Numbered from the stretch's first letter, positions 4,175 through 57,532 are shown. The stretch is 64,000 nt of DNA from Nitrospira sp. KM1 (GCF_011405515.1 NZ_AP022671.1:4092001-4156000), one strand, 5' to 3'. Translations and numbers: made by a program. Notes: generated from the letters alone by a model not told the origin.

Positions 4175-5512
4175 ATGGGGACTTGGACCGGAATGCAGTG
4201 GCGGTTGGCGGCAGCGGCAGGAGCGATGCCAGGAGCGTTCTTCATCGCGCCGGGGCTTGGATGGGCGCAGTCTCCGACCGGTACGGCTGCCCCTATCAGC
4301 GGGGCCGATACCGCGTGGGTCTTGCTTTCGTCCGCTCTGGTCTTGGCGATGATCGTCCCAGGTCTGGCGCTGTTTTATGGCGGACTCGTGCGCAGCAAGA
4401 ACGTGCTCGGAACGATCATGCAGAGCTTCGTCATTCTCTGCCTCGTCAGCCTCTTGTGGGTGATGGGAGCGTACAGCCTGGCCTTCGGTCCCGATGTGAA
4501 AGGCGTCATTGGCGGTCTCGAATGGATCGGTTTGAACGGAGTGGGATTGACTCCGAATCCGACCTACGCGCCGACCGTTCCACACGAGGCCTTCATGGTC
4601 TTTCAGCTCATGTTTGCCGCGATTACGCCCGCCCTCATCACGGGCGCCTTCGCCGAACGGATGAAGTTCAGCGCGCTGCTGCTTTTCTCCGCACTGTGGT
4701 CCGTGTTCGTCTATTGTCCGGTCGCCCATTGGCTGTGGGGCGGGGGATGGTTGGCGAAGCTGGGAGCGTTGGATTTTGCCGGCGGTGCCGTTGTGCACAT
4801 CAGTTCCGGCGTGAGCGCGCTCGTCTGCGCGGTGGTTCTGGGGCAGCGACAAGGATATGGAAGCGACTACATGGCCCCTCACAATCTGCCCATGGTGCTG
4901 CTGGGGACCGGGCTGCTCTGGTTCGGCTGGTTCGGATTCAATGCCGGGAGCGCCCTCGGCGCCAATGAAACGGCGGTCGTCGCGTTCGTTGCGACTCACA
5001 CCGCGGCCGCAGCGGCGGCCATGAGCTGGATGGCCGTTGAATGGTGGCATCGCGGAACCCCCACCGTTCTGGGGCTCGCCAGCGGAGCGATCGCGGGATT
5101 AGCGACCATCACACCGGGGGCCGGGTACATGAACCCGATGTCCGCGCTCGCCGTCGGTTTGATTGCGGGAGGGCTGTCATATCTCGCCATCATGCGGAAG
5201 GGAAAATTCGGATACGACGATTCACTCGACGTCGTGGGAATCCACGGCGTCGCCGGAGTGGCCGGAATTCTGTTGACGGGGATGCTGGCCTCCAAGAGCG
5301 TGAACCCCGCCGGTGCGGACGGGCTGTTTTCCGGCGGGGGCGCGTTTTTTATCGCTCAGGCCGCGACCGTGATCGTGGTCGGGGCGTTTTCAGCCGTCGG
5401 CACGCTCGTCATCCTCAAGGTCACCAATCGTTTGGTGGGACTGCGGGTGACGCCGGACGAAGAACGGATGGGCCTGGACATCAGTCAGCACAATGAGCGG
5501 GCGTATTCGTGA
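4175..5512 (+). CDS. amtB: Ammonium transporter Amt
   Basis: A 445-residue ammonium channel of the inner membrane. An N-terminal signal sequence ends near GLGWAQS, followed by eleven predicted membrane helices. Conserved pore features are visible: LALFYGGLVRSKNV, FAAITPAL (Phe gate), the pore Trp in HWLWGGGW, the first twin His in VVHISSGVSA, the Phe/Ser recognition residues in WFGFNAGSA, and the second twin His in VVGIHGVAG. The ATG at 4175 has an AAAGGAAGAG ribosome-binding site; an upstream in-frame start at 4073 would lie inside the attenuator and is rejected. No GlnK gene follows. The leader hairpins suggest control by transcription antitermination according to nitrogen status. Confidence 0.93.
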   Translation: MGTWTGMQWRLAAAAGAMPGAFFIAPGLGWAQSPTGTAAPISGADTAWVLLSSALVLAMIVPGLALFYGGLVRSKNVLGTIMQSFVILCLVSLLWVMGAYSLAFGPDVKGVIGGLEWIGLNGVGLTPNPTYAPTVPHEAFMVFQLMFAAITPALITGAFAERMKFSALLLFSALWSVFVYCPVAHWLWGGGWLAKLGALDFAGGAVVHISSGVSALVCAVVLGQRQGYGSDYMAPHNLPMVLLGTGLLWFGWFGFNAGSALGANETAVVAFVATHTAAAAAAMSWMAVEWWHRGTPTVLGLASGAIAGLATITPGAGYMNPMSALAVGLIAGGLSYLAIMRKGKFGYDDSLDVVGIHGVAGVAGILLTGMLASKSVNPAGADGLFSGGGAFFIAQAATVIVVGAFSAVGTLVILKVTNRLVGLRVTPDEERMGLDISQHNERAYS

Positions 5513-44626: not shown

Positions 44627-46879
44627 ATGACCGCACACGCATCCACGGTAACCAAAGAGTTGATCGCGCAACATAATGTGAGCGAGGACGAGTACAAGAA
44701 GATCGTCGAGATTCTGGGACGCGAACCGAATCTGACCGAGCTTGGAATGTTTTCGGTCATGTGGTCGGAACACTGCTCGTACAAGAGTTCCCGGGTGCAT
44801 CTGAAAAAACTACCAACCACCGGTCCCCGGGTCGTGCAGGGGCCGGGCGAGAATGCCGGGGCGGTCGATATCGGCGACGGTCTGTGCGTGGTCTTCAAGA
44901 TGGAGTCGCACAATCATCCTTCCTTCATCGAGCCTTATCAGGGAGCTGCAACCGGCGTCGGCGGCATTCTTCGCGACATCTTTACGATGGGGGCCAGGCC
45001 GATCGCCTTGCTCGACTCGCTGCGATTCGGTGGACTGGATACGGTCAAGAATCGTCATCTGATGAAAGGAGTCGTCGCCGGTATTGCCGGATATGGCAAC
45101 TGCATGGGCGTGCCGACGGTGGGCGGCGAGGTCCGGTTCGACGATATCTATTCGCTCAATCCGTTGGTCAATGTGTTTTGCCTGGGAATTGCGCAGCAGA
45201 ACAGGATTTTCCGCGGCACGGCCGCAGGGGTAGGGAATCCGGTCATCTATTTCGGTTCGAAAACCGGACGGGATGGCATTCACGGCGCCACCATGGCGTC
45301 CGACTCTTTTGACGATTCAGCTGACCAAAAACGGCCGACCGTGCAGGTCGGCGATCCGTTCACCGAAAAACTGCTCTTGGAGGCCTGTCTCGAATTGATG
45401 GCGAACGATCTGTTAGTGGGCATTCAAGACATGGGGGCGGCCGGACTGACCAGTTCGTCCTGCGAAATGGCATCGCGGGCGGGGAACGGTATTGAACTGG
45501 ATCTCACGCACGTACCCCGCCGTGAGCCGGGGATGACGCCGTACGAGCTCATGCTTTCCGAATCGCAGGAACGTATGTTGATGGTGGCAAAGGCGGGGAA
45601 GGAGCAGGAGTGCATCCGAATTTGCCAAAAGTGGGATCTCGAGGTGGCAGTGGTCGGCACGGTCACAGCCGACGGTATGCTGCGAATCAAGGATCAGGCT
45701 AAGGTCGTGGCCGAGATCCCGGCGAAGGCGTTGGCGGATGAAGGACCTCGGTACGAACGACCCTACCAGCCGCCTGCCTACCAGGATATGCTGACGAACC
45801 TGAATTATGATGCGATCGCCGACGTGAAGGATCCCGGCGGAGCATTGCTATCTCTGCTCGAGTCTCCGACGATCGCGAGCAAGCGGTGGATCTACGAGCA
45901 GTATGACCACATGGTGCGCACGAATACGATGGTCCGGCCGGGATCGGACGCCGCCGTTGTCCGTATCAAAGGGACGAACAAAGCGGTTGCCATGACCGTT
46001 GATTGCAACGGACGATACTGTTTGCTTCACCCATATGATGGCGCCCGGCTGGCCGTAGCGGAAGCGGCGCGCAATCTCGTCTGTTCAGGAGCTCACCCCA
46101 TCGGCCTGACCGACTGCTTGAATTTCGGTAACCCGGAGCGGCCCGATATCATGTGGCAGTTTGTGCTGGGAATCGAAGGGATGAAGGATGCCTGCGAGCA
46201 TTTCCAGATCCCGATCGTCAGCGGGAACGTCAGTTTTTATAATGAAACGAATGGGTTGTCGATTTATCCCACGCCGATGCTCGGTATGGTGGGCTTGATC
46301 GAAGATGCGGACCACATCATGACACAATGGTTCCAAGAGGAAGGCGACGCGGTTGTGCTGCTCGGTAACACGAGGGAAGACCTGGGAGGCACCGAGTATC
46401 TCAAGGTTGCCCATTCTCGTGAGCAAGGGTCGCCTCCATTTCTGAATCTCGATGCTGAGAAAGCCGTGCAGGATCTCGTACTCAAAGTAATCCATGAGGG
46501 ACTCGTTCGATCAGCTCACGATTGTTCGGATGGAGGGTTGGCGGTTGCATTGGCTGAATGTTGCGTTTCGTCGCCGGGCACGAGGCGAGGGGCTGTGATA
46601 AAATTACATCTCGATTCGTTGCGGCGTGATGCCCTCTTGTTCGGCGAAAGCCAATCCAGAGTGGTGCTATCGATGAAGCCGGATTACGTGCAGGCGGTTT
46701 TGCAACGGGCAGCCGAAGCGGGTGTCCCGGCCGCAACGATCGGGACGGTTGGAGGAGATCGACTATTGATCGACGTGGAAAAGGGGCGGTGGACCGATGG
46801 CTGCCGCATCGATCTCCCGACCGAGACGCTGTATGACCGGTGGGCGAATTCACTTGGGCGGATATTGAGCCACGAGTAA
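44627..46879 (+). CDS. purL: FGAM synthase subunit PurL (small type)
   Basis: A 750-residue ATP-dependent synthase subunit of the small (PurQ/PurS-dependent) type. [40 protein letters not shown] and [20 protein letters not shown] are canonical. It converts FGAR to FGAM together with PurQ and PurS. Confidence 0.97.
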
Positions 46880-46884
46880 CACGG

Positions 46885-48321
46885 ATGCAGACACAAAAAG
46901 ATCTTCCCCTCGTCACCCCCGACAAGTTTCATGACGAATGTGCCGTGTTCGGCATCTATGGCCATGAGGAAGCCGCCAACCTGACCTACCTGGGTTTGTA
47001 CGCCCTGCAGCATCGAGGGCAAGAGGCGTCCGGCATCGTATCGGGAGACGGGGAGCAGTTTTGCGTGCAAAAGGGAATGGGGCTCGTCGCCGACATTTAT
47101 AATAAATCCGCGTTGGAAAAGTTGCCAGGCCACATGGCGATCGGCCACAACCGCTATTCCACGACCGGAGGCAATGATCTGAAGAACGTCCAGCCGCTGA
47201 CCGTCAACTTCGCATTTGGTAATCTGGCGCTGGCCCATAATGGGAACCTCATCAACGCCCAGGTGCTGCGACACGAGTTGGAAGCCTACGGGGCGATTTT
47301 CCAGTCGACATCCGACAGCGAAGTCATCATTCACCTGATCGCCCATTCGCGAGCCGATACGTTCTTGGCGCGTGTCATCGATGCGCTCAGTCAGGTCCGC
47401 GGGGCATTTTCAGTCGTGCTGATGACCGACAACGGCCTGATCGCGGCAAGGGATCCCTACGGCCTGCGCCCACTCTGCATCGGAAAAATTCGGAGCAGTT
47501 GGATCGTCGCGTCCGAGACCTGCGCCTTCGATCTGCTCGATGCGGAATATGTCAGAGAAGTGGAACCCGGCGAACTGGTGGTGCTGAGCGAGCAAGGCAT
47601 GGAAAGCCATCACCCGTTTCCGACCGTCAATCCGGCCATGTGCGTGTTCGAGTATGTGTATTTTGCAAGGCCGGACAGCAAGATTTTCGGAGCCAATGCC
47701 GTTTATGCCACGCGTAAAGCCCTCGGGAGACAGCTGGCCGAGGAGTCGTGGGTTCCGGCCGACATCGTCATCCCCGTTCCCGATTCGGGAGTCCCCGCGG
47801 CGCTCGGCTATGCCGAAGGCGGCGGCATTCGATTCGAGACCGGTCTGATCCGCAATCACTATGTGGGGCGCACGTTTATCGAGCCGGAACAGTCGATCCG
47901 GCATTTCGGGGTGAAGGTCAAGCTCAATGCGGTGTCGGAGGTTCTGGAAGGAAAGCGCGTCGTGGTGGTAGACGACTCGCTTGTGCGCGGGACGACGAGC
48001 CGCAAGATCGTGAAGATGATCCGTAATGCGGGAGCCAAGGAAGTGCATATGCGAATCAGTTCGCCGCCGATTATCTCTCCCTGTTTCTACGGGATCGATA
48101 CGCCTACGAAAAAGGAGCTGATCGCCTCCAGCCATTCGACCGAAGAAATTCGGAAGTACATCACCGCCGACAGCTTGGCCTATCTCAGCCTCGACGGCAT
48201 GTTGAAGGCGGCTCCTGGAACGCCGACTCAATACTGCAGTGCTTGCTTCACCGAGCGATATCCGATTTCTTTCACGAGGGCCGAAGAATTGCAGCTTGGA
48301 TTGTTCGAGCCGTCCTCGTAG
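46885..48321 (+). CDS. purF: Amidophosphoribosyltransferase
   Basis: A 478-residue enzyme of the committed purine step. The glutaminase Cys follows a short propeptide ([17 protein letters not shown]), suggesting processing. [14 protein letters not shown], the PRPP-binding [20 protein letters not shown] and the Fe-S type Cys residues near the C-terminus ([20 protein letters not shown]) place it with the Bacillus-type, Fe-S-containing enzyme. The ATG at 46885 lies 5 bases after purL. Confidence 0.96.
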
Positions 48322-48439: not shown

Positions 48440-48847
48440 ATGTCCGGTCTGGTGTCGAAATATGTGACCATCGCCCAAGCTGGTGCAACCATCCTCCGTG
48501 TCCGATGGCTGTCGAGACGAAGAAAGCTGCCGCAGGTGCTCGCGATATTGAGCCGGGCGGCGACGGTCACGGTTGGTTCCCGCACGCGTATCGACGATGC
48601 GGTGTATTACACCGATCGCTGGCTGGAATTATTCCCCTTTCAAGCCAGAGGCAATTGTTTCCCACGAACGCTGGCGCTGTACTCGATCGCCCGACGTGCG
48701 GGATATCCGGTCCAGTTTCACTGTGGCGTCCGGAGACGGGGATCAGGACTCGATGGACACGCGTGGCTGACGTTGAACGGCTCGGCATTTTATGAGATGA
48801 ACGAGGATTGGAAGTCGTTCACCGTGACATTCTCCTATACGGTTTAA
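48440..48847 (+). CDS. Lasso-peptide-type leader peptidase (B2, transglutaminase-like)
   Basis: A 135-residue protein of the transglutaminase-like family used as leader peptidase in lasso peptide biosynthesis. The catalytic Cys is in GNCFPRTLALYSIARRAGYP and the His in DGHAWLTLNG. Family length is about 140 residues, so the ATG at 48440 fits; an ATG at 48374 would add an atypical N-terminus. It is the first gene of the RiPP locus, 118 bases after purF. It probably cuts the precursor at 53212-53346 with help from the PqqD-type protein at 52746. Confidence 0.8.
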   Translation: MSGLVSKYVTIAQAGATILRVRWLSRRRKLPQVLAILSRAATVTVGSRTRIDDAVYYTDRWLELFPFQARGNCFPRTLALYSIARRAGYPVQFHCGVRRRGSGLDGHAWLTLNGSAFYEMNEDWKSFTVTFSYTV

Positions 48848-48923
48848 CCAGGCCGGTACGGGCAACGCCACGGTCTCATGCGTCAACCCGTGAGGCCGCC
48901 GCCCGGGCGATGAGCACGATGCG

Positions 48924-50744
48924 ATGAACACGATGTACGTCCTGACAGAACGGACCCGAGCGTTCGTGGGAACCCTTCGGCGGGCCCTGCATTTTGTGTG
49001 GCTGAGCAGTCCGGGTCTCACGATCAGCGGCACGCTGGTGCGGGTGATCCAAGGGCTGCTGCCGCTGGCGGTGTTGTACCTGACGAAACTCCTCATCGAT
49101 GCGGTGACCCGAGAACTGAGCGGAGGGGCGCAGGAAAAATCCTTGGCGTCGATCGCCTTCTTTCTGGGCGGCCTCGCCGGTGCCGCCGCGCTCAACGCGC
49201 TGCTGACGGTCGTCGCATCATACATTTCCCGAGTCCACTTGCAGGTGGTAACCGATCACATGCATGCCCTCCTCCAAGCGAAATCGATCGAAGTCGATCT
49301 CGAGTACTATGAGAATGCGAACTATCAGGACACATTGCACCGGGCTCAACAGGAGGCTCCGTATCGCCCCACCGCCATTCTCAATTCCCTGCTGCAGCTC
49401 GTTCAGGACGGCATCTCGCTTCTGGCAATGGCGGCTGTCCTCTGGTGGCTCCATTGGTCCGTCATTCCCGTACTTATCGTGTCATCCGCTCCGTATTTTT
49501 TCGTCCGTCTCAAGCAATCGTCCTCCCTATTCGCCTGGGAGCGTGATCGGACTTCGCTCGAGCGAAAAGCCTGGTACTTCAATTCTCTCCTGACGATGGG
49601 CGTGTCCGCCAAAGAAGTCCGGCTCTTCGGTCTTGGGCCGCGCGTGCGGCGCTGGTTCCAAGATGTCCGAAGGATCCTACGGACGGAGCGGATTGCCCTG
49701 GAGCGTCGGTGGGCGTTGGCCAACTTGGCCGCCCACATGATCGGAGTGATCGGTGTTTTCGGTCTGTACAGTTTCGTGGCATTGCGGACGGTTCAGGGTA
49801 CCCTGACGGTCGGAGACCTCGTGATGTACTTTCAGGCCGTTCAGCGGGCTTCGACTTTCCTCGAAGGATTGGGGTGGGGGCTGTCAGGACTCTACGAAAG
49901 CAATCTGTTCCTGTCGGCGCTCGATGACTTCATGGCTGTCAAGTCACGCCTGCCACTGGCATCGAACCCCGTGAGGTTCCCGGCTCCCATTCGAACCGGG
50001 TTGGTGTTTGAGAAGGTATCATTTCAATACCCGGAGGATGACAGGCTCGTGCTCCGGGACTTCACCTTGTCGATCGCCCCGGGCGAACACGTTGCGCTCG
50101 TCGGAGCGAACGGAGCGGGGAAGACGACGTTGGTCAAATTGCTCTGTCGACTATACGATCCGACGGCCGGCAGGATTACGATCGACGGCGTCGATATTCG
50201 TGACTATGCCATCGACAGCGTGCGCGGAGCCGTCAGCGGAATTTTTCAGGACTTTGGAAGATTTCAGCTGTCCGCCAAAGACAATATCGAGTTGAGCGTG
50301 ACCGCGGGGAACTCGGATTTGGCCGCTGTCATGAGTGCGGCAAGGCAAGCGGGGATTCACGATGTCATTGAACGGTTGCCGCAGGGGTATGACTCACAGC
50401 TGGGTAGGAATTTCGACGGCGGACATGAGCTCAGCATCGGGGAGTGGCAAAAGGTGGCGCTTGCCCGAGCCGTGCTGCGCGAATCGCAGATCCTCATTCT
50501 CGATGAGCCGACCAGCGCCATGGATGCCAAGGCGGAGGCTGAGTTGTTTGAACGGTTCCACGAACTGGCTCGCGGGCGCATGGCGCTGCTCATCAGTCAT
50601 CGCCTCTCGACCGTCAAGATGGCCGACCGGATTTACGTCATCGACAACGGAGGAATTGTCGAACAGGGCACCCATGACGAGTTGATACAGCTTCAAGGCT
50701 TGTATGCGACGTTGTTTCTGACCCAGGCCCGGTATTACCAGTAG
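48924..50744 (+). CDS. ABC exporter (fused membrane and ATPase domains) of the RiPP locus
   Basis: A 606-residue half-transporter that should work as a homodimer. Six membrane helices occupy residues 20-310; the ATPase domain has Walker A GANGAGKTTL, the signature LSIGEWQKVALARAV and Walker B ILILDEPTSAMDA. The signature is LSIGE rather than LSGGQ. There is no N-terminal C39 peptidase domain, consistent with a separate leader peptidase (B2). It corresponds to the D protein of lasso clusters and would export the mature peptide. Confidence 0.88.
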   Translation: MNTMYVLTERTRAFVGTLRRALHFVWLSSPGLTISGTLVRVIQGLLPLAVLYLTKLLIDAVTRELSGGAQEKSLASIAFFLGGLAGAAALNALLTVVASYISRVHLQVVTDHMHALLQAKSIEVDLEYYENANYQDTLHRAQQEAPYRPTAILNSLLQLVQDGISLLAMAAVLWWLHWSVIPVLIVSSAPYFFVRLKQSSSLFAWERDRTSLERKAWYFNSLLTMGVSAKEVRLFGLGPRVRRWFQDVRRILRTERIALERRWALANLAAHMIGVIGVFGLYSFVALRTVQGTLTVGDLVMYFQAVQRASTFLEGLGWGLSGLYESNLFLSALDDFMAVKSRLPLASNPVRFPAPIRTGLVFEKVSFQYPEDDRLVLRDFTLSIAPGEHVALVGANGAGKTTLVKLLCRLYDPTAGRITIDGVDIRDYAIDSVRGAVSGIFQDFGRFQLSAKDNIELSVTAGNSDLAAVMSAARQAGIHDVIERLPQGYDSQLGRNFDGGHELSIGEWQKVALARAVLRESQILILDEPTSAMDAKAEAELFERFHELARGRMALLISHRLSTVKMADRIYVIDNGGIVEQGTHDELIQLQGLYATLFLTQARYYQ

Positions 50745-50866
50745 TCTTCAGCTCAAACTGCATCGCAGTTTTACTTACCTGCCTAAGTAGGGGACTCTCC
50801 AACTTCTGGTGAGCTAGTCAGGTTGAGCATGCGGAGCTAGTCTCCGGTCAAGAACGCCGGAATGGT

Positions 50867-51883
50867 ATGGCGTTTTGCCGGAGACACCTTCCCGTGATCC
50901 TCATTCTCGCCGACACAACAGATCCATGGGCAACGCTGCTGTATCGGGAACTGCGTCATAGCGCCGCAACGGTTGTTTGGATTCCCCCGGCACAGCTTCT
51001 GGAACGGGTGCGGCTGAACTGGTCGGTCCAGTCGAAACGCGGCATTCCCACCGGGTTTCTCAGTATCGATGACACAACGGTGCCGCTTTGCGAACTCACG
51101 GGAGTCTTCGCACAAACTCCGTTCACCCTTTCTGTTGACCCAGAGGGATTGGATCCGAACGATCGAGAATACGTGACAAAGGAGGCCACGGCGGCCTGGC
51201 TGGGATTGCTCAACGCGTTACCCTGTCCTGTCATGAACAGGCCTCTGCCGGGAGGCCGCCCGACCATTCTTTCCGGTCATTCCATCCTGGCAGGTCTCGT
51301 GGCTGAACACGGATTTGAGCTTCCGCCCTCCTTGTACACGATGAGCAAGGATGATGCGGTACACCGCTTTGCCGTCTGGAAGGGCGCCGTCTATCTCAAG
51401 CCGGTGGGTTCTCACGAGGCCGGGATCTACCTGCAGCCGCAGGACGGTGTCGAGCAGATCAAGCGTGTACTGGAGCACCAGGCCGTCACGATGCAGCAGG
51501 TGCCGGACGGTCGGAGGGTCACGGTGTATGTAGTCGGCGGCAATGCTGCGGCCACGTGCGTTCATTCCGATGACTGCTCTGGCACAGACTTCGCCTTGTC
51601 TCCGGTCCCGGCGGAATCCTGTACGAAGTTGACCCGTGCGCTGGGTCTGTCATTCGCGGAGTGCCACCTTGTTGTCACGTCCGGCAGGACGTGCTGCCTG
51701 GATATCAGTAGTACTCCCGCCTATTGGCGCTGCCCGCGAGAAGTGCGGCAGCGGTTGATTTCCCGGCTTGCCGATGGTTTGTCCGAACCGAGGAGCTTGT
51801 TGCTCGATGATTCTCTTGATGGGCTCCATGGCCGATCCGATACTCGCGAACACCTGTGCCAGACTCGCAGCCCGGAATGTTGA
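50867..51883 (+). CDS. Degenerate ATP-grasp-like protein of the RiPP locus
   Basis: A 338-residue protein resembling its downstream neighbour in layout: an N-terminal pre-ATP-grasp domain, then PVMNRPLPGGRPT, GFELPPSLYTMSKDDAV, GAVYLKPVGSHEAG and RRVTVYVVGGNAAATC. The usual metal-binding E-V-N near the C-terminus is replaced by CCLDISSTPAYW, so catalytic activity is doubtful. The last 25 codons overlap the next gene in another frame, and that tail has poor composition. It may be a binding partner or pseudoenzyme for the next protein. Assignment to ATP-grasp is moderate. Confidence 0.65.
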   Translation: MAFCRRHLPVILILADTTDPWATLLYRELRHSAATVVWIPPAQLLERVRLNWSVQSKRGIPTGFLSIDDTTVPLCELTGVFAQTPFTLSVDPEGLDPNDREYVTKEATAAWLGLLNALPCPVMNRPLPGGRPTILSGHSILAGLVAEHGFELPPSLYTMSKDDAVHRFAVWKGAVYLKPVGSHEAGIYLQPQDGVEQIKRVLEHQAVTMQQVPDGRRVTVYVVGGNAAATCVHSDDCSGTDFALSPVPAESCTKLTRALGLSFAECHLVVTSGRTCCLDISSTPAYWRCPREVRQRLISRLADGLSEPRSLLLDDSLDGLHGRSDTREHLCQTRSPEC

Positions 51884-52706
51884 ACTGTTGCTGATCGATC
51901 CGGACGCCGAAGGCGACGACTTGGAGATGATGTGGTCGATGGATCCGGGGTGTCCGGTGAACTGCCTGCAAATCGGAAACCGTACAATCGGCATCTCTGA
52001 TATCGAGGCCGTCTATTTGCGGGGAATGGGCGGCCGGATGCCCCGAACCGTCAATGAACGGATGAGGCTTACCTGTTTATGGGAATTCGTAGACCGGCTG
52101 CCGGCATTGGTGGTGAATCCCAGACAGGCATCGCATACCAACATGTCCAAGCCGTACCAGCTGAGGCTCATTGCCTCGTACGGGTTCCAGATCCCCGAGA
52201 CACTCATCACGATGGAACCGAACGAGGTCCGGGCGTTCTATCACGAGTACAACGGACGCGTGATTTATAAGTCCATCAGTGCGGAACGCTCGATCGTGAA
52301 AACTCTTACGACGGACGACTTCTCCAGACTCGACCGGATTCGACATTGCCCGATCCAACTTCAGGAAATGATTCCCGGCTTCGATATTCGGGTCCATACC
52401 GTGGGAGACCGCGTGTTTGCCACCGAAATTTGCTCCGGAGGTACGGACTACCGTTACGCCGAACGTGAAAATCTGACACGGTCGATGCGGGCGATGGAAC
52501 TCGAAGCCTCCGTGGAGGCGCAATGTTTGAAAATGGCGAAAGGGTTGGGACTGAGCCTGAGCGGGATCGATCTTCGACGCACTTCCGACGGGGCCTATTA
52601 CTGTTTTGAGGTCAATACCAGCCCCGGCTTCACCTTCTTCGAAAATCATACCGGCCAACGAATCGGAGACGCATTGGCCGACATGCTGTGTGCGGCGAGA
52701 GCATGA
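51807..52706 (+). CDS. ATP-grasp ligase, graspetide-type
   Basis: A 299-residue ATP-grasp enzyme resembling the ligases that crosslink graspetides (microviridin family). Landmarks are NMSKPYQLRLIASYG with GFQIPETLIT, the ATP Lys in RVIYKSIS, QLQEMIPGFDIRVHTVG, and the Mg-binding CFEVNTSPGFTFFE (E268-N270). The preferred ATG at 51807 has a GAGGAG ribosome-binding site at 51790-51795 and lies inside the previous gene. In a RiPP setting it would activate Asp/Glu side chains with ATP and join them to Lys, Ser or Thr. RimK-type glutamate ligase is the alternative. Confidence 0.8.
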   Translation: MILLMGSMADPILANTCARLAARNVELLLIDPDAEGDDLEMMWSMDPGCPVNCLQIGNRTIGISDIEAVYLRGMGGRMPRTVNERMRLTCLWEFVDRLPALVVNPRQASHTNMSKPYQLRLIASYGFQIPETLITMEPNEVRAFYHEYNGRVIYKSISAERSIVKTLTTDDFSRLDRIRHCPIQLQEMIPGFDIRVHTVGDRVFATEICSGGTDYRYAERENLTRSMRAMELEASVEAQCLKMAKGLGLSLSGIDLRRTSDGAYYCFEVNTSPGFTFFENHTGQRIGDALADMLCAARA

Positions 52707-52745
52707 ACATGGGTGCGAACGTGCGGAAAAGGAGGAAGCAGCACA

Positions 52746-53204
52746 ATGGATCGACAGCCGTTTATCACTGCCGATTTGAGGCCGGATATGACCGTCGACA
52801 GCGGGCTTCACCGGTCTGCGATACGTGAAAGCGCCACGACTGTTCAACTGGCCGATGCGGCCGCCGCGATTCTCTCCGAGGAAGAGCTCCGCCAGGTGGA
52901 CCGCGGTCGTCCGGGCCGGACGGAGGACATCATGGCCACGGTGCCTCAGCCGAATTCCAACGTGCAGGGGACGACGTTGGACGAAGAAACGGTCCTGCTG
53001 GATCTCAGCACCGGTCGTTACTACACACTCAATCGGGTGGGATCCGCCATCTGGCACGATTGCAACGGTGTGAATTCCCTGCGGGACATCCAGGAACGTC
53101 TTAGCTCGAGATTTGAAGCCCCGCTGGAACGCATTGCCGATGATCTCCTCGCTCTCGTGACGCAGCTGAGTCATGAGGGACTTTTAACATTGGAAAGGAG
53201 GTGA
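52746..53204 (+). CDS. PqqD-type RiPP recognition element protein (B1) with N-terminal extension
   Basis: A 152-residue protein. Residues 63-152 are a PqqD-like winged-helix domain (ETVLLDLSTGRYYTLNRVG, SAIWHDCNG, LRDIQERLSSRFEAPLERIA), the domain that binds leader peptides. The first 62 residues are an unassigned extension. Two starts are credible: ATG 52746 (AAAGGAGGAA) and ATG 52932 (GGAGGA), the latter giving the usual B1 length of about 90 residues. It ends 8 bases before the precursor gene. Confidence 0.8.
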   Translation: MDRQPFITADLRPDMTVDSGLHRSAIRESATTVQLADAAAAILSEEELRQVDRGRPGRTEDIMATVPQPNSNVQGTTLDEETVLLDLSTGRYYTLNRVGSAIWHDCNGVNSLRDIQERLSSRFEAPLERIADDLLALVTQLSHEGLLTLERR

Positions 53205-53211
53205 ATGAAGA

Positions 53212-53346
53212 ATGGAATCTCACAAGAAAGAGACCTACAGCGAGCCTGTGTTGACTGCTCATGAACTCCTGCGCGATATCACAGGCCAGAAGTATCGGGA
53301 GAAGGAAAGAGACAAGTTCAGCGACAAGAGCGGCGTCGAGAACTAG
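53212..53346 (+). CDS. Candidate RiPP precursor peptide
   Basis: A 44-residue peptide, too short for routine gene calling. An AAAGGAGGTGA ribosome-binding site lies nine bases before the ATG. Residues 9-14 are YSEPVL, the YxxPxL motif of lasso-type leaders that B1 proteins bind, followed by HELLRDIT with a Thr at 24, as expected near the leader end. The likely core (from about residue 25-26) is GQKYREKERDKF then SDKSGVEN: no Cys, many Lys, Asp, Glu and two Ser. Such residues could be crosslinked by the ATP-grasp enzyme, and Ser is a possible target of the kinase that follows. It is the only small gene with these features in the locus. Confidence 0.72.
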   Translation: MESHKKETYSEPVLTAHELLRDITGQKYREKERDKFSDKSGVEN

Positions 53347-53378
53347 ACAACGGTCTTGTTGTGCGAGGTTCATACCCA

Positions 53379-53406
53379 GCTGACCGGTCTTGACGGCCGG
53401 TCAGCG
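53379..53406 (+). promoter_or_regulatory. Hairpin between precursor and kinase genes
   Basis: GCTGACCGG (53379-53387) pairs with CCGGTCAGC (53397-53405), a perfect 9-bp stem with a nine-base loop, 32 bases after the precursor stop. No T-run follows. Such hairpins behind RiPP precursors often protect the precursor mRNA or reduce read-through to the modification genes; that role is inferred. Confidence 0.5.
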
Positions 53407-53450
53407 CCTGAAGTCGCGGCGGGTGTGAGATGTAACCAGTGAGGCAACCG

Positions 53451-54485
53451 ATGGGCTCAATCACCGATGCGCGTACGTATCGATTTTGTCTGCACGGAGT
53501 GGATCTTCACTACGAGACCTCCATTCCCTCGCTGGCGGCTCCCGTGCTCTCCTTCCTTCGCCATTTTCATACGCCGCCGGTATCTGGCGGTGCGTCGCTG
53601 ACGATTCGGTTCCAAGAGGCGAAGAGCCGCGAGCAGATTCCTATCAGAGCATCCGACTCTGCAAAGCTCCTGTTTTCCGGTACCAGACCGTCCATGGGAG
53701 ATTCGCTGCGATCGATTTGGCGCTGCGATGTCAAGCAGGACGGTTACCTGCTCATCGCGGATTTCCACGAGCAGGGCTTGCTGGCCATTGATGGACCGGC
53801 CGGGACGGTGGAGGGGTATTTCGTAAAGCCGGATGCCATGCATGCGGACGTCTGTACCAGCTTTTTCCATTACGCGCTGACCGAGTTGCTCAAGCGCCGC
53901 GATCTCTTTACGGTGCACGCGACGGCTCTGGAATATGGAGGCCGGGGCGTCCTGATTCCCGGATACAGCGGGCAGGGTAAAACGACGTCGTTCCTGTCGC
54001 TCCTCCGTGCAGGCTATCGATACCTTTCGGATGACTACCCGTTACTCCGGGACCGTGGAACGCACATGGAATTGTTGGCATTTCCAATGAAGATCGATGT
54101 GACGGATCGTACGGTTACCATGTTCCCTGAGCTGCACAATGCTCCCCCAGGCGTGCTGCATCAGGGGATCTGCAAAAAGTACTTTCAGGTGGAAGACCTG
54201 TACGCGAATTCGATCGGCCAATCCTGCACGCCGGCCATGATTCTGTTCCCTCACGTCGTCGATGTGCCCCACAGCTGCCTGGAACCGCTTCCGAGGAGCC
54301 GTGCGCTCGAGGCGATCATGCCGCAGGCTCTGTTGGTCTATGACAAGGACGTTGCCGTTCGGGAATTCAAGGCGCTGTCTCATTTAGTCGAACAAGCCGA
54401 TTGCTATCGGCTGCATTTCGGCCGTGACGTACTCGATTTGCCGAAATTGATTACCCCGCTATTAGAGATGCGGCGGAGCGCGTAA
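53451..54485 (+). CDS. HPr kinase-like protein of the RiPP locus
   Basis: A protein of about 344 residues with an HPrK-type fold. The P-loop is VLIPGYSGQGKTTSFLSLL, followed by YRYLSDDYPLLR (the second acidic motif) and a C-terminal domain. HPr kinase-like enzymes in some lasso clusters (paeninodin type) phosphorylate a C-terminal Ser of the precursor. The ATG at 53451 is chosen over an in-frame GTG at 53439; neither has a strong ribosome-binding site. The target here is unknown. Confidence 0.78.
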   Translation: MGSITDARTYRFCLHGVDLHYETSIPSLAAPVLSFLRHFHTPPVSGGASLTIRFQEAKSREQIPIRASDSAKLLFSGTRPSMGDSLRSIWRCDVKQDGYLLIADFHEQGLLAIDGPAGTVEGYFVKPDAMHADVCTSFFHYALTELLKRRDLFTVHATALEYGGRGVLIPGYSGQGKTTSFLSLLRAGYRYLSDDYPLLRDRGTHMELLAFPMKIDVTDRTVTMFPELHNAPPGVLHQGICKKYFQVEDLYANSIGQSCTPAMILFPHVVDVPHSCLEPLPRSRALEAIMPQALLVYDKDVAVREFKALSHLVEQADCYRLHFGRDVLDLPKLITPLLEMRRSA

Positions 54486-54492
54486 CGGCCTC

Positions 54493-55530
54493 ATGACAAT
54501 AGACGGCGTTATCTGGGCTCTCAAGAAAATCGCGGAGTACTCGCTCGTGTCGGTTTCGTCCTGGGACGCGTTTTTCACCGGCATCGGGAGGGCGGCCCGG
54601 ACGTTTACAGACCTGGAAAGCGGAATGGCCTGGCCCTATCTCCTCGCAAGCTTCACGATTGCCGCCGGCGTGTTCATGTACGCACGTCGGCGAGGTGAAG
54701 CAAAGCCAGGCACGTTTGTGTCGTTCTTATTCCCGCGCGAGGTCTACGGGCATACGTCCGCTGCGCTCGATTACCAGTTCTACGCGATCAACCTGGTTCT
54801 CAAGTTCCTGTTCTGGGTTCCGATCATGACAGGCATGGGCATGATCGGCTACAAGGCAATGGCTGCCATCCTCGTTGAATGGATGAAATGGGAGCCGCCA
54901 GCGCGGTTGTCGACGGGGCAAGCACTCGGCGCCGCCTTTGGGTTGTTTGTCCTGTATGACTTCGTCAATTACTGCAGCCATGTTCTCTTTCATAAAATTC
55001 CGGTCCTGTGGGCTTTTCACGAGGTCCATCATTCGGCACAGGTGATGACGCCAATCACCGCGTTCCGGGCGCATCCCATGGAATTATTATTCCCTGCGCT
55101 GCTGCAGATGCCGGTGATCGGATTCGCGGCGGTTTTCTACCAGAACGTGGCGCCGCGTGATTTGGAGGTCGATACGGTTTTTGGAATCGGTCTCTTCACA
55201 TTCGCATTCGGCCTGCTCGGACACCATTTGCAGCATTCACACATCTGGCTGTCGTTTGGGCCGATCCTAAGCCGTCTGTACATCAGTCCTGCCCAGCATC
55301 AGATCCATCACAGCGTCGATGCGCGGCATCGGAACAGGAACTTCGGGGTGAAATTCGCCATATGGGACACGCTATTCGGGACGCTCTATGTCCCACCGGG
55401 TCGTGAGACGATTCAACTGGGTGTGCCGAATCAGAAAACAGTGGTATTCACGTCCGTTACACGGATCTACTTTCTTCCATTCGTCAGAGTCTGGACCTCG
55501 TTCAGAGGTGGTCAGGCGGGAAGAATCTGA
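54493..55530 (+). CDS. Membrane di-iron hydroxylase (sterol desaturase/fatty acid hydroxylase superfamily)
   Basis: A 345-residue membrane enzyme. Three His clusters are visible: HVLFHKIP (HX3H), HEVHHSAQ (HX2HH), and HHLQHSHIW with HQIHHSVDARH further on, which together bind a di-iron centre. About five membrane helices surround them. Family members hydroxylate or desaturate lipid C-H bonds. It starts 7 bases after the kinase gene and shares one base with the next gene, so it belongs to the locus; peptide or lipid modification are both possible. Confidence 0.82.
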   Translation: MTIDGVIWALKKIAEYSLVSVSSWDAFFTGIGRAARTFTDLESGMAWPYLLASFTIAAGVFMYARRRGEAKPGTFVSFLFPREVYGHTSAALDYQFYAINLVLKFLFWVPIMTGMGMIGYKAMAAILVEWMKWEPPARLSTGQALGAAFGLFVLYDFVNYCSHVLFHKIPVLWAFHEVHHSAQVMTPITAFRAHPMELLFPALLQMPVIGFAAVFYQNVAPRDLEVDTVFGIGLFTFAFGLLGHHLQHSHIWLSFGPILSRLYISPAQHQIHHSVDARHRNRNFGVKFAIWDTLFGTLYVPPGRETIQLGVPNQKTVVFTSVTRIYFLPFVRVWTSFRGGQAGRI

Positions 55531-56792
55531 TGCCTGTTCAATCCGGCAGGGCCGCAATGCGCAGCGCGAGCACGAAATCGAAGGATTGTGACATCGGGCA
55601 TGTGACCCAAGAGGCCAGGCTTTTGCTTGCGTGCTCGCGAACGTCAATGAGCGATGCCGCGCGGTCGCAGATCTTGAATTTGGCGACTACGATTGACAGC
55701 TGGCGGGCGGTCGTTGAGCTGGCCCGTTATCATGGAGTCGCACCGCTCATGTACCGCGCACTTCGTCTGGTCTGTCCGGACCTCGTTCCTAAAGAACCGC
55801 TGGATGCATTGAGAAGTTTAACCCAGGCGGGGGCGTTGTTGAACCGATCGCTCGCGCAGGAGTTGATTCACCTGTGCCAGGCGTTTGACGAGCAGAGCGT
55901 CCCCGTCATCCCGTTTAAGGGAGCGACGTTGGCGGTGGCGGCCTATGGCGATCTCGCCCTTCGTGACTTTGACGATCTGGATTTCATCGTGCCGAAGGAG
56001 CGCGCGTCGGATGCGCAACAGGTCTTGTGGGCGCAGGGGTATCGTCCCCGGGACCGCTCGCATGGTCCAATGCATGCCGAGGAGCCGTATCATGTCTTTG
56101 TGAAGAAGCAGAGCTTGTTGCGAATCGACCTGCAATGGACCATGGCGCACGAACGGTTCTCGTTTCGGCTCGACCGGCCTGAAATCTGGGACCATCTGTT
56201 GCCTGTTTCAATCGGCGGCGTTCAGATCCGTGCCCTCGCGCCTGAGGAATTGCTGATCGTGTTATGTGTCCACGGTTCGAAGCACGCCTGGGAACAGCTC
56301 AAATGGGTCGCCGACGTATCCGAATTGCTCCGCTCTCATCGGGTGGATTGGAGGCGGGTGTTTGCCGTGGCCAAGAAATGGAAATGCCGCCGGATGTTGG
56401 TGCTCGGACTGATGGTGGCGTATCGATTATTGGACGCTCCTCTTCCTGGTTCGGTTGTCGCTGGCCTTGCCCGCGAGGGCGAAGTGGCTGCGCTGGCGGG
56501 ACGGATGCCCAAGAGCCTACTGACACGTCCGCAGGAAGGCATTGATGACCAGGACAACGCCGCACTGTATCTGTCTCTGAAGGATTCCCGGTGGAATCGA
56601 TGGAATTTCGGATTAACCCTGCTCCGTGACGACCATCCTGTCGTGCATGATCCACCCGCTTGGCTTCGTGCAGGCTCCTCACTGACCATCTTGGCGGGGA
56701 TATTCCAGCCGCTGCGCCGATGTGCGGCGCAGTCCCGACATGTCAAGCGACTGCTGAGAGCCGTAGGGAGACTTCATGAGCATGCCCCGTAA
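55530..56792 (+). CDS. Nucleotidyltransferase-family protein of the RiPP locus
   Basis: A 420-residue protein with a minimal nucleotidyltransferase core: PVIPFKGATLAVAAYGDL followed by RDFDDLDFIVPKE (the D-x-D acids) and DLQWTMAHERFSF. The second half (RALAPEELLIVLCVHGSKHAWEQL) is helical. Proteins of this family are common companions of lasso and related RiPP clusters, with unknown chemistry. It shares one base (TGATG) with the hydroxylase stop. Confidence 0.8.
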   Translation: MPVQSGRAAMRSASTKSKDCDIGHVTQEARLLLACSRTSMSDAARSQILNLATTIDSWRAVVELARYHGVAPLMYRALRLVCPDLVPKEPLDALRSLTQAGALLNRSLAQELIHLCQAFDEQSVPVIPFKGATLAVAAYGDLALRDFDDLDFIVPKERASDAQQVLWAQGYRPRDRSHGPMHAEEPYHVFVKKQSLLRIDLQWTMAHERFSFRLDRPEIWDHLLPVSIGGVQIRALAPEELLIVLCVHGSKHAWEQLKWVADVSELLRSHRVDWRRVFAVAKKWKCRRMLVLGLMVAYRLLDAPLPGSVVAGLAREGEVAALAGRMPKSLLTRPQEGIDDQDNAALYLSLKDSRWNRWNFGLTLLRDDHPVVHDPPAWLRAGSSLTILAGIFQPLRRCAAQSRHVKRLLRAVGRLHEHAP

Positions 56793-56998: not shown

Positions 56999-57532
56999 AT
57001 GAAACGGCTGGTTCTCATCGCAGGCGTGCTGCTGTGTCCGCTGCTTGTGACACAGCTCCTTTTCGCCGCCGGCTTTTTTAAGATCGGAGAGAAAGCCCCC
57101 GGATTCCAACTCACGGCCATTACAGGCGAACCGGTTTCGCTGGATGCTGTCAAAGGGAAGGTCGTCGTGCTAGGGCTTTTTCATATTTGTGATCCCTGCA
57201 TGATGCAAGGCACTAATCTGCAAAAGGTGTACGAGGCCACGCAAGGCAAGAACGTTGCCGTGATTGGTATCAATTCCAACGGCAATTCAAAGAAAGATGT
57301 CGGAGAATTTCTGTCCGCCTTTCCTGTGAAGGTGACCTATCCCTATCTCCTTGATCCGGGAAAAGTCACGGATAAGCTGTATGGGGGCGGCAAATTCATT
57401 CCCAACGTGTACGTCATCGATCAACAGGGGGTGATCAAGTGGCAACGCGTCGGGAATATGGACCTGGCTGGAGCGGATGTGATTCTGGCTGAAGTAGAAA
57501 AACTCCTCACGGCCGGTTCATCTGCGATGTAG
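56999..57532 (+). CDS. TlpA/ResA-like thioredoxin-fold protein
   Basis: A 177-residue exported protein. A signal sequence or anchor (residues 1-22) precedes a thioredoxin-fold domain with GEKAPGFQLTAITGEPVSL and the active-site CDPC (FHICDPCMM). The cis-Pro region is FIPNVYVID. It would reduce or exchange disulfides in the periplasm, for example in cytochrome c maturation. A GGGAGG site precedes the ATG. It is 206 bases after the RiPP genes, so membership in that locus is uncertain. Confidence 0.85.
   Translation: MKRLVLIAGVLLCPLLVTQLLFAAGFFKIGEKAPGFQLTAITGEPVSLDAVKGKVVVLGLFHICDPCMMQGTNLQKVYEATQGKNVAVIGINSNGNSKKDVGEFLSAFPVKVTYPYLLDPGKVTDKLYGGGKFIPNVYVIDQQGVIKWQRVGNMDLAGADVILAEVEKLLTAGSSAM

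Follow-up and report, generated by a model that had tools for sequence, protein, structure and literature searches.

What does a nine-gene run in Nitrospira sp. KM1 make, given that it places lasso-type leader-handling genes beside two ATP-grasp proteins and lacks a lasso cyclase? We analysed a 64,000-nucleotide stretch (the window; 4092001-4156000 of the 4.51-Mb single-contig genome), whose closest relatives by sequence are Nitrospira records, and located the run on the plus strand at window positions 48440-56792 (Table 1). A preliminary description of this DNA had listed these nine genes, and Pfam and NCBIfam matches confirm all of them in place. The explanation that we favour as likely, taken as a whole, is a RiPP pathway in which lasso- or LPP-type leader handling is combined with graspetide-type core chemistry, and as judged from sequence the cluster very probably makes a side-chain-crosslinked peptide.

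Table 1. Genes of the Nitrospira sp. KM1 cluster and its flanks, in window coordinates
Feature	Position	Strand	Basis
purF (flank)	46840-48321		name from reading of translation
B2-type leader peptidase (Transglut_core3)	48440-48847	+	PF13471 63.8 bits; NF033537 lasso B2 45.1 bits, above cut-off
MsbA-like ABC exporter	48924-50744	+	PF00005, PF00664
G1, degenerate (pseudo) ATP-grasp, probable partner protein	50867-51883	+	TIGR04187 52 bits; no Pfam match
G2, active-type ATP-grasp ligase, graspetide synthetase family	about 51807-52706	+	RimK PF08443; TIGR04187 126 bits; TIGR04184/5 about 100 bits
G2, longer ORF alternative	start 51768	+	
PqqD-type RRE, conserved N-terminal extension	about 52746-53204	+	PF05402 61.4 bits; lasso PqqD models; alignment
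PqqD-type RRE, longer ORF alternative	start 52713	+	
Precursor peptide, 44 aa	53212-53346	+	conserved in all homologous loci; K-x-x-[DE] enrichment
HprK-like kinase (P-loop/PEPCK-like fold)	53439-54485	+	TIGR04352 56 bits, 3.7e-15, below its cut-off of 200
Membrane di-iron hydroxylase (fatty-acid hydroxylase family)	54493-55530	+	PF04116 FA_hydroxylase 87.5 bits
NTP_transf_5 nucleotidyltransferase	55530-56792	+	PF14907 203 bits
Thioredoxin-like gene (flank)	56999-57532		name from reading of translation

We used G2 as a query against 100 relatives, then 84,980 species genomes, and then 396 genomes sampled from the phylum. The same gene set was recovered in loci among the 100 relatives, and the 84,980-genome scan added loci in Nitrospira metagenome-assembled genomes, Nitrospirales, one contig titled Nitrospinota and Nostoc sp. 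UCD121. In the phylum sample a clean gap separates G2 proteins of the cluster, which score at least 490 bits, from all other proteins, which score below 300 bits. The resulting set comprises 20 non-redundant loci (the window, L028-L031, L033, L034, L041-L048, L050, L052, L142, L146 and L205), all of which carry G1, G2, the RRE and precursor genes, with one to three short peptides per locus. Per-protein identity is 40-73% in the nearest loci, and recurrence of the gene set in identical order in other Nitrospira argues that it is not a chance assembly. B2 is not beside the module in L041 and L048, both of which are cut by contig ends (in L048 ahead of any visible kinase), nor in L034, where the B2 of the same genome lies on a separate contig, L144.

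Leader handling in the cluster follows a lasso-type scheme. The precursor, with leader MESHKKETYSEPVLTAHELLRDIT and core GQ-KYRE-KERD-KFSD-KSGVE-N, is accompanied by an RRE (B1) and a B2 peptidase, and the leader consensus across loci, Y-x-x-P-[VIL]-[LVI]...H-x-x-L-[RK]-[DE]-[IV]-T or close variants, is of the lasso type (YxxPxL...DIT). The B2 catalytic Cys (GNCFPR) and His (GHAWL) are kept across homologues, and the single B2 copy of the whole genome is the one in this cluster. Pfam scans found no C39 peptidase domain in the exporter and no signal-peptidase domain among the nine genes, in which the peptidase is B2. Asn_synthase domains are absent from the cluster and its surroundings, and no such lasso cyclase lies near any of the 20 loci examined, so the locus is not a lasso cluster. 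Weak 'ASN' matches of 24-41 bits at purF adjoining clusters were read as the purF glutaminase domain, and genes of ~560 aa in L031 and L033, once suspected to be cyclases, belong by Pfam to GMC oxidoreductase and gluconate 2-dehydrogenase subunit 3 families. The cyclase might instead be encoded at a distance, leaving the ATP-grasp pair a secondary role in a lasso pathway, as the lasso-type leader, B1/B2 and paeninodin-type kinase and nucleotidyltransferase would allow and as five full-length Asn_synthase proteins elsewhere in the genome (classified at Pfam level) could permit. We regard this already disfavoured possibility as highly improbable, since the sole B2 sits in a cluster type with a cyclase in 0 of 20 loci, a ring-forming acid at positions 7-9, counted from a fixed first residue, is not conserved among the cores, and the true lasso clusters of relatives (nine other loci, cyclase above 200 bits) have an adjoining cyclase and a separate B2/PqqD/HprK lineage, with the HprK split at 100/100 in the tree. 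The preliminary description had proposed lasso-type leader handling with a graspetide-type ligase in the place of the cyclase, and had named a cyclase elsewhere with the same distribution as evidence against it; the RRE, B2, leader and missing Asn_synthase bear out the proposal, and none of the 20 loci holds such a cyclase.

The two ATP-grasp proteins, previously listed side by side, share a fold and are not equivalent. G2 is homologous to characterized graspetide synthetases: its profile matches PsnB (6e-34), AMdnB, MdnC, CdnC, PruB (9bou) and MdnB in the PDB ahead of RimK (6e-10), and TIGR04187 is matched by 20 of 20 G2 members, although the window G2, at 126 bits where the cut-off is 350, falls outside this curated graspetide model. 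Residues K155, R195, H197, D255, R257, E268 and N270 are invariant in the 20 G2 sequences. G1 likewise has graspetide synthetases as the best PDB matches of its profile, and its AlphaFold model (pLDDT 81) retrieves AMdnB, PsnB and MdnC as top Foldseek matches (TM 0.54-0.61), but the Mg/ATP-binding acids are missing: all 21 G1 sequences lack the acid of GIDLRR, the counterpart of D255, and the E-x-N pair of FEVN. In nearly all loci the G1 and G2 reading frames overlap: the shared stretch is 77 nt long in most Nitrospira and 4 nt long in L033, L034 and L052. From its sequence, G1 is a conserved degenerate ATP-grasp that probably serves G2 as a non-catalytic partner, and the two may form a complex with the RRE. 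In Nostoc sp. UCD121 (L050:3567-4928), G2 and a PqqD domain that has the same N-terminal extension form one 453-aa ORF; this fused ligase-RRE is followed by a 103-aa precursor (4915-5226) with many K-x(2-3)-[D/E] units. Other G1/G2-like ATP-grasp pairs, which occur in many phyla, are accompanied by a Peptidase_M6-like protein and often also by one of ~100 aa (L032:8391-11952, L071:6885-10621, L080:7350-9200 and L067:7106-9214), and these constitute a different system.

Graspetide cores hold donor residues (Ser/Thr/Lys) and acceptor residues (Asp/Glu) in a conserved register, and the precursor cores do so with Lys and Asp/Glu. Units of K-x-x-[D/E] are repeated in tandem, for example KYRE-KYRD-KVND in L029, KYQE-KTSD-KPGD in L041 and KYRE-KLLD-KFSD in L031. 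Across 29 cores, Lys is followed by an acid at i+3 in 59 instances against 15.5 expected (0 of 2000 shuffles reached this count, shuffles that ignore common descent) and at i+4 in 27 instances against 14.5 in shuffled cores; in a lineage-thinned set the i+3 enrichment persists at 22 against 8.0 (0 of 2000 shuffles). The pattern tracks the ligase, as i+3 pairs are found in 30 of 34 cores beside G1/G2 and 4 of 46 cores from related clusters without them, a difference for which the Fisher p of 2e-13 is overstated because the sequences are related; in the same tests, cores of the clusters without G1/G2 show no K-x-x-[DE] pattern. Two of the 34 cores beside G1/G2 lack a Lys-to-acid pair at either i+3 or i+4 (L142:3621, minus strand; L052:7118, plus strand), and on these G2 would be either inactive or performing different chemistry. 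Highly charged cores could also function as uncrosslinked helices, unmodified or merely phosphorylated, with the ATP-grasp genes acting on something else. The usual helix salt-bridge spacing, acid to Lys at i+4, is however not enriched (14 against 14.6 shuffled), which counts against a helical salt-bridge account, and the concentration of the pattern beside G1/G2 together with the Nostoc fusion, which links the ligase to leader-bearing precursors, makes this alternative very unlikely as a whole. Lys- and acid-rich cores suit the side-chain ester or amide crosslinks suggested earlier, with amide bonds through Lys more likely than esters. Separately, four precursors on the G1/G2 side (L142:3621-3758, L028:3475-3603, L045:13035-13163 and L046:14336-14464) contain a pair of Cys within the core (KYKEQCQKAVDAVCVS type), which suggests a disulfide or other Cys modification.

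Clusters without the ATP-grasp pair define a sister family. In ~23 relatives, clusters whose B2 is of the same lineage contain neither G1/G2 nor a cyclase; most of them include RRE, kinase and nucleotidyltransferase, and they often occupy the equivalent site adjoining purF. This mostly purF-linked family is widespread in Nitrospiraceae (L122, L124, L126-L128, L130, L131, L133-L135, with further loci L138-L140, L145, L149, L150 and L156), its precursors include ...DVT-AIQLSRVLDRTPV and ...DIT-AGQSGYNCDD..., and in the Nitrospira loci L028 and L044-L047 a sister module stands in tandem with a G1/G2 module. Ser occurs at core positions 3-5 in 44 of 46 sister cores (one of the two exceptions being a script parsing error) compared with 14 of 34 cores beside G1/G2; the window core has none there. 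Ser near the sister-core start is a candidate phosphosite, placed similarly to S3 of LPP, the phosphorylated Ser adjoining the leader (PMC13381572), and the sister clusters resemble LPP-like phosphopeptide systems without a cyclase, apparently an equivalent of LPP in which B2 does the processing. Absence of the ATP-grasp gene from homologous loci had been named in advance as evidence against the crosslinking proposal; such B2/PqqD/HprK/nucleotidyltransferase loci do exist, but because their cores differ, the ATP-grasp pair is best described as an optional module that tracks core type. In PqqD and HprK trees the G1/G2-bearing loci are not monophyletic, so a single origin of the module does not follow.

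The window cluster itself has the LPP set of RRE, HprK-like kinase, nucleotidyltransferase and MsbA-like exporter with a YxxP leader and no cyclase (PMC13381572), and the leader YxxPVLxxHELLRDIT resembles the LPP motif YxxPxVLxHQxIxFETxxS, which has Ser at core position 3. The LPP systems described are restricted to Bacillota, use an SpI-like (SipW-type) LppS peptidase and have no ATP-grasp ligase named in the conserved set (PMC13381572); with B2 where LPP has LppS, the cluster falls outside the published definition of LPP. The locus is better described as an LPP-like phosphopeptide pathway that has no cyclase and carries an ATP-grasp module than by the earlier picture of a lasso cluster minus its cyclase. 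On this background G2 could add a free amino acid to a side chain or the C terminus, in the manner of RimK or PEARL enzymes, within a linear phosphopeptide pathway that uses B2 for LppS and forms no crosslink. Sister clusters that equal the exact LPP gene set without ATP-grasp and share an LPP-like Ser position (PMC13381572) are compatible with this, as is the 58-bit match of G2 to the RimK model, a family that ligates free amino acids. We nevertheless judge it unlikely, as graspetide macrocyclases are closer to G2 than RimK is (126 versus 58 bits; PDB 6e-34 versus 6e-10) and aminoacylation leaves the strict K-x-x-[D/E] pairing unexplained.

Tailoring genes accompany the module. The kinase conserves Walker A GYSGQGKT, a His and a DD pair, which correspond to the His-Lys-Asp-Asp motif described for lasso kinases (PMC9266682), and its model (pLDDT 87) has a PEPCK/HprK-like fold with PEPCK as best fold matches. 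In pseudomycoidin biosynthesis the nucleotidyltransferase-like PsmN places hexoses on phospho-Ser (PMC9266682). Phosphorylation of the product had been raised as a possibility and the kinase gene is present, but most KYxE cores, unlike those of the sister clusters, have no Ser near the core start, so action of the kinase on them, and phosphorylation of the window core in particular, is uncertain. Of the 20 loci with G1/G2, 14 also encode the di-iron hydroxylase, whereas none of the 23 clusters lacking the pair does. In L031:4160-6628 and L033:3968-6271 a GMC oxidoreductase paired with a gluconate 2-dehydrogenase subunit 3-like protein takes the place of the hydroxylase, and in Nostoc L050 the module adjoins a WelO5-like Fe/2OG protein, identified by a weak match (21.7 bits; cut-off 27). 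The presence of three unrelated oxidase families (di-iron, GMC/FAD and Fe/2OG) suggests an oxidized product. Lipids are the usual substrates of membrane di-iron hydroxylases, whereas the oxidase here would act on the peptide.

From these features we infer bond type, connectivity, order of steps and chemistry as follows. The PqqD-type RRE would bind the YxxPxL leader and pass the precursor to G2, which would use ATP to activate Asp/Glu side chains and link each one to the Lys that precedes it by three, sometimes four, residues, so that a ladder of isopeptide (lactam) bridges builds up along the K-x-x-[D/E] core. G1, the degenerate ATP-grasp encoded by the overlapping gene, would assist G2 without being catalytic itself, probably within a heteromer. 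A phosphate followed by a sugar or nucleotide may then be added to Ser/Thr, if present, by the kinase and nucleotidyltransferase, the membrane hydroxylase may oxidize the product, B2 would cleave near the 'DIT-G' junction, and the ABC protein would export the product.

By G2 homology and core pattern the cluster belongs with the graspetides, its crosslinks being predicted. In a 2026 survey of 21,584 graspetide peptides, one close parallel is corallotide (group 15), in which the TIGR04187 enzyme CorB forms an isopeptide bond within K-x-x-x-D, whose Lys is then hydroxylated by CorC (PMC13097080). Both systems have a TIGR04187-like ATP-grasp, Lys-acid pairs in repeated short units, an oxidase in the cluster and a partner protein; the corallotide precursor is large and the oxidase there a 2OG oxygenase, whereas the Nitrospira cluster shows mainly i+3 spacing, pairs its lasso-type leader with RRE and B2, has a degenerate ATP-grasp as partner, and includes a kinase and a nucleotidyltransferase (PMC13097080). 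The rosaritide synthetase (group 21, MirB/MirC) also needs a partner protein, but MirC is a PPIase-like chaperone rather than an ATP-grasp homologue, and that cluster includes a peptidase-containing ABC transporter (PCAT) (PMC13097080). Paeninodin and pseudomycoidin lasso clusters share B1/B2, HprK-like kinase, nucleotidyltransferase and ABC exporter with the Nitrospira cluster, which differs in having no macrolactam cyclase and in adding an ATP-grasp pair and a hydroxylase. Microviridin operons also encode two ATP-grasp proteins, MdnB and MdnC, with the fold of both G1 and G2; both Mdn enzymes are active and neither RRE nor B2 is known to be used, whereas one of the Nitrospira pair is degenerate. 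The preliminary description knew of no family with this combination, which holds for the literature searched: no paper joined graspetides with Nitrospirota or described a match to this assembly line, and the text of a 2022 graspetide survey makes no mention of Nitrospir- or transglutaminase (PMC8939145). Groups 33 and 39, listed with transglutaminase-fold proteins in the 2026 survey, may overlap with the Nitrospira loci (PMC13097080). We propose tentatively, at slightly less than an even chance, a distinct RiPP family that is RRE-guided and B2-processed, with an i,i+3 Lys-Asp/Glu lactam ladder, an obligate pair of active and dead ATP-grasp proteins and any of three unrelated oxidases, in which an ATP-grasp module has been joined to a widespread cyclase-less phosphopeptide pathway of Nitrospira.

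If this is correct, leader handling by RRE and B2 and core chemistry by ATP-grasp crosslinking would be exchangeable modules, and their exchange would help to account for the origin of one RiPP class from another. The pseudo-ATP-grasp partner would represent a new way of running a graspetide synthetase, and the short K-x-x-D/E lactam ladder a simple, engineerable staple. For Nitrospira, the cluster would indicate a previously unknown peptide product of this nitrifier genus.
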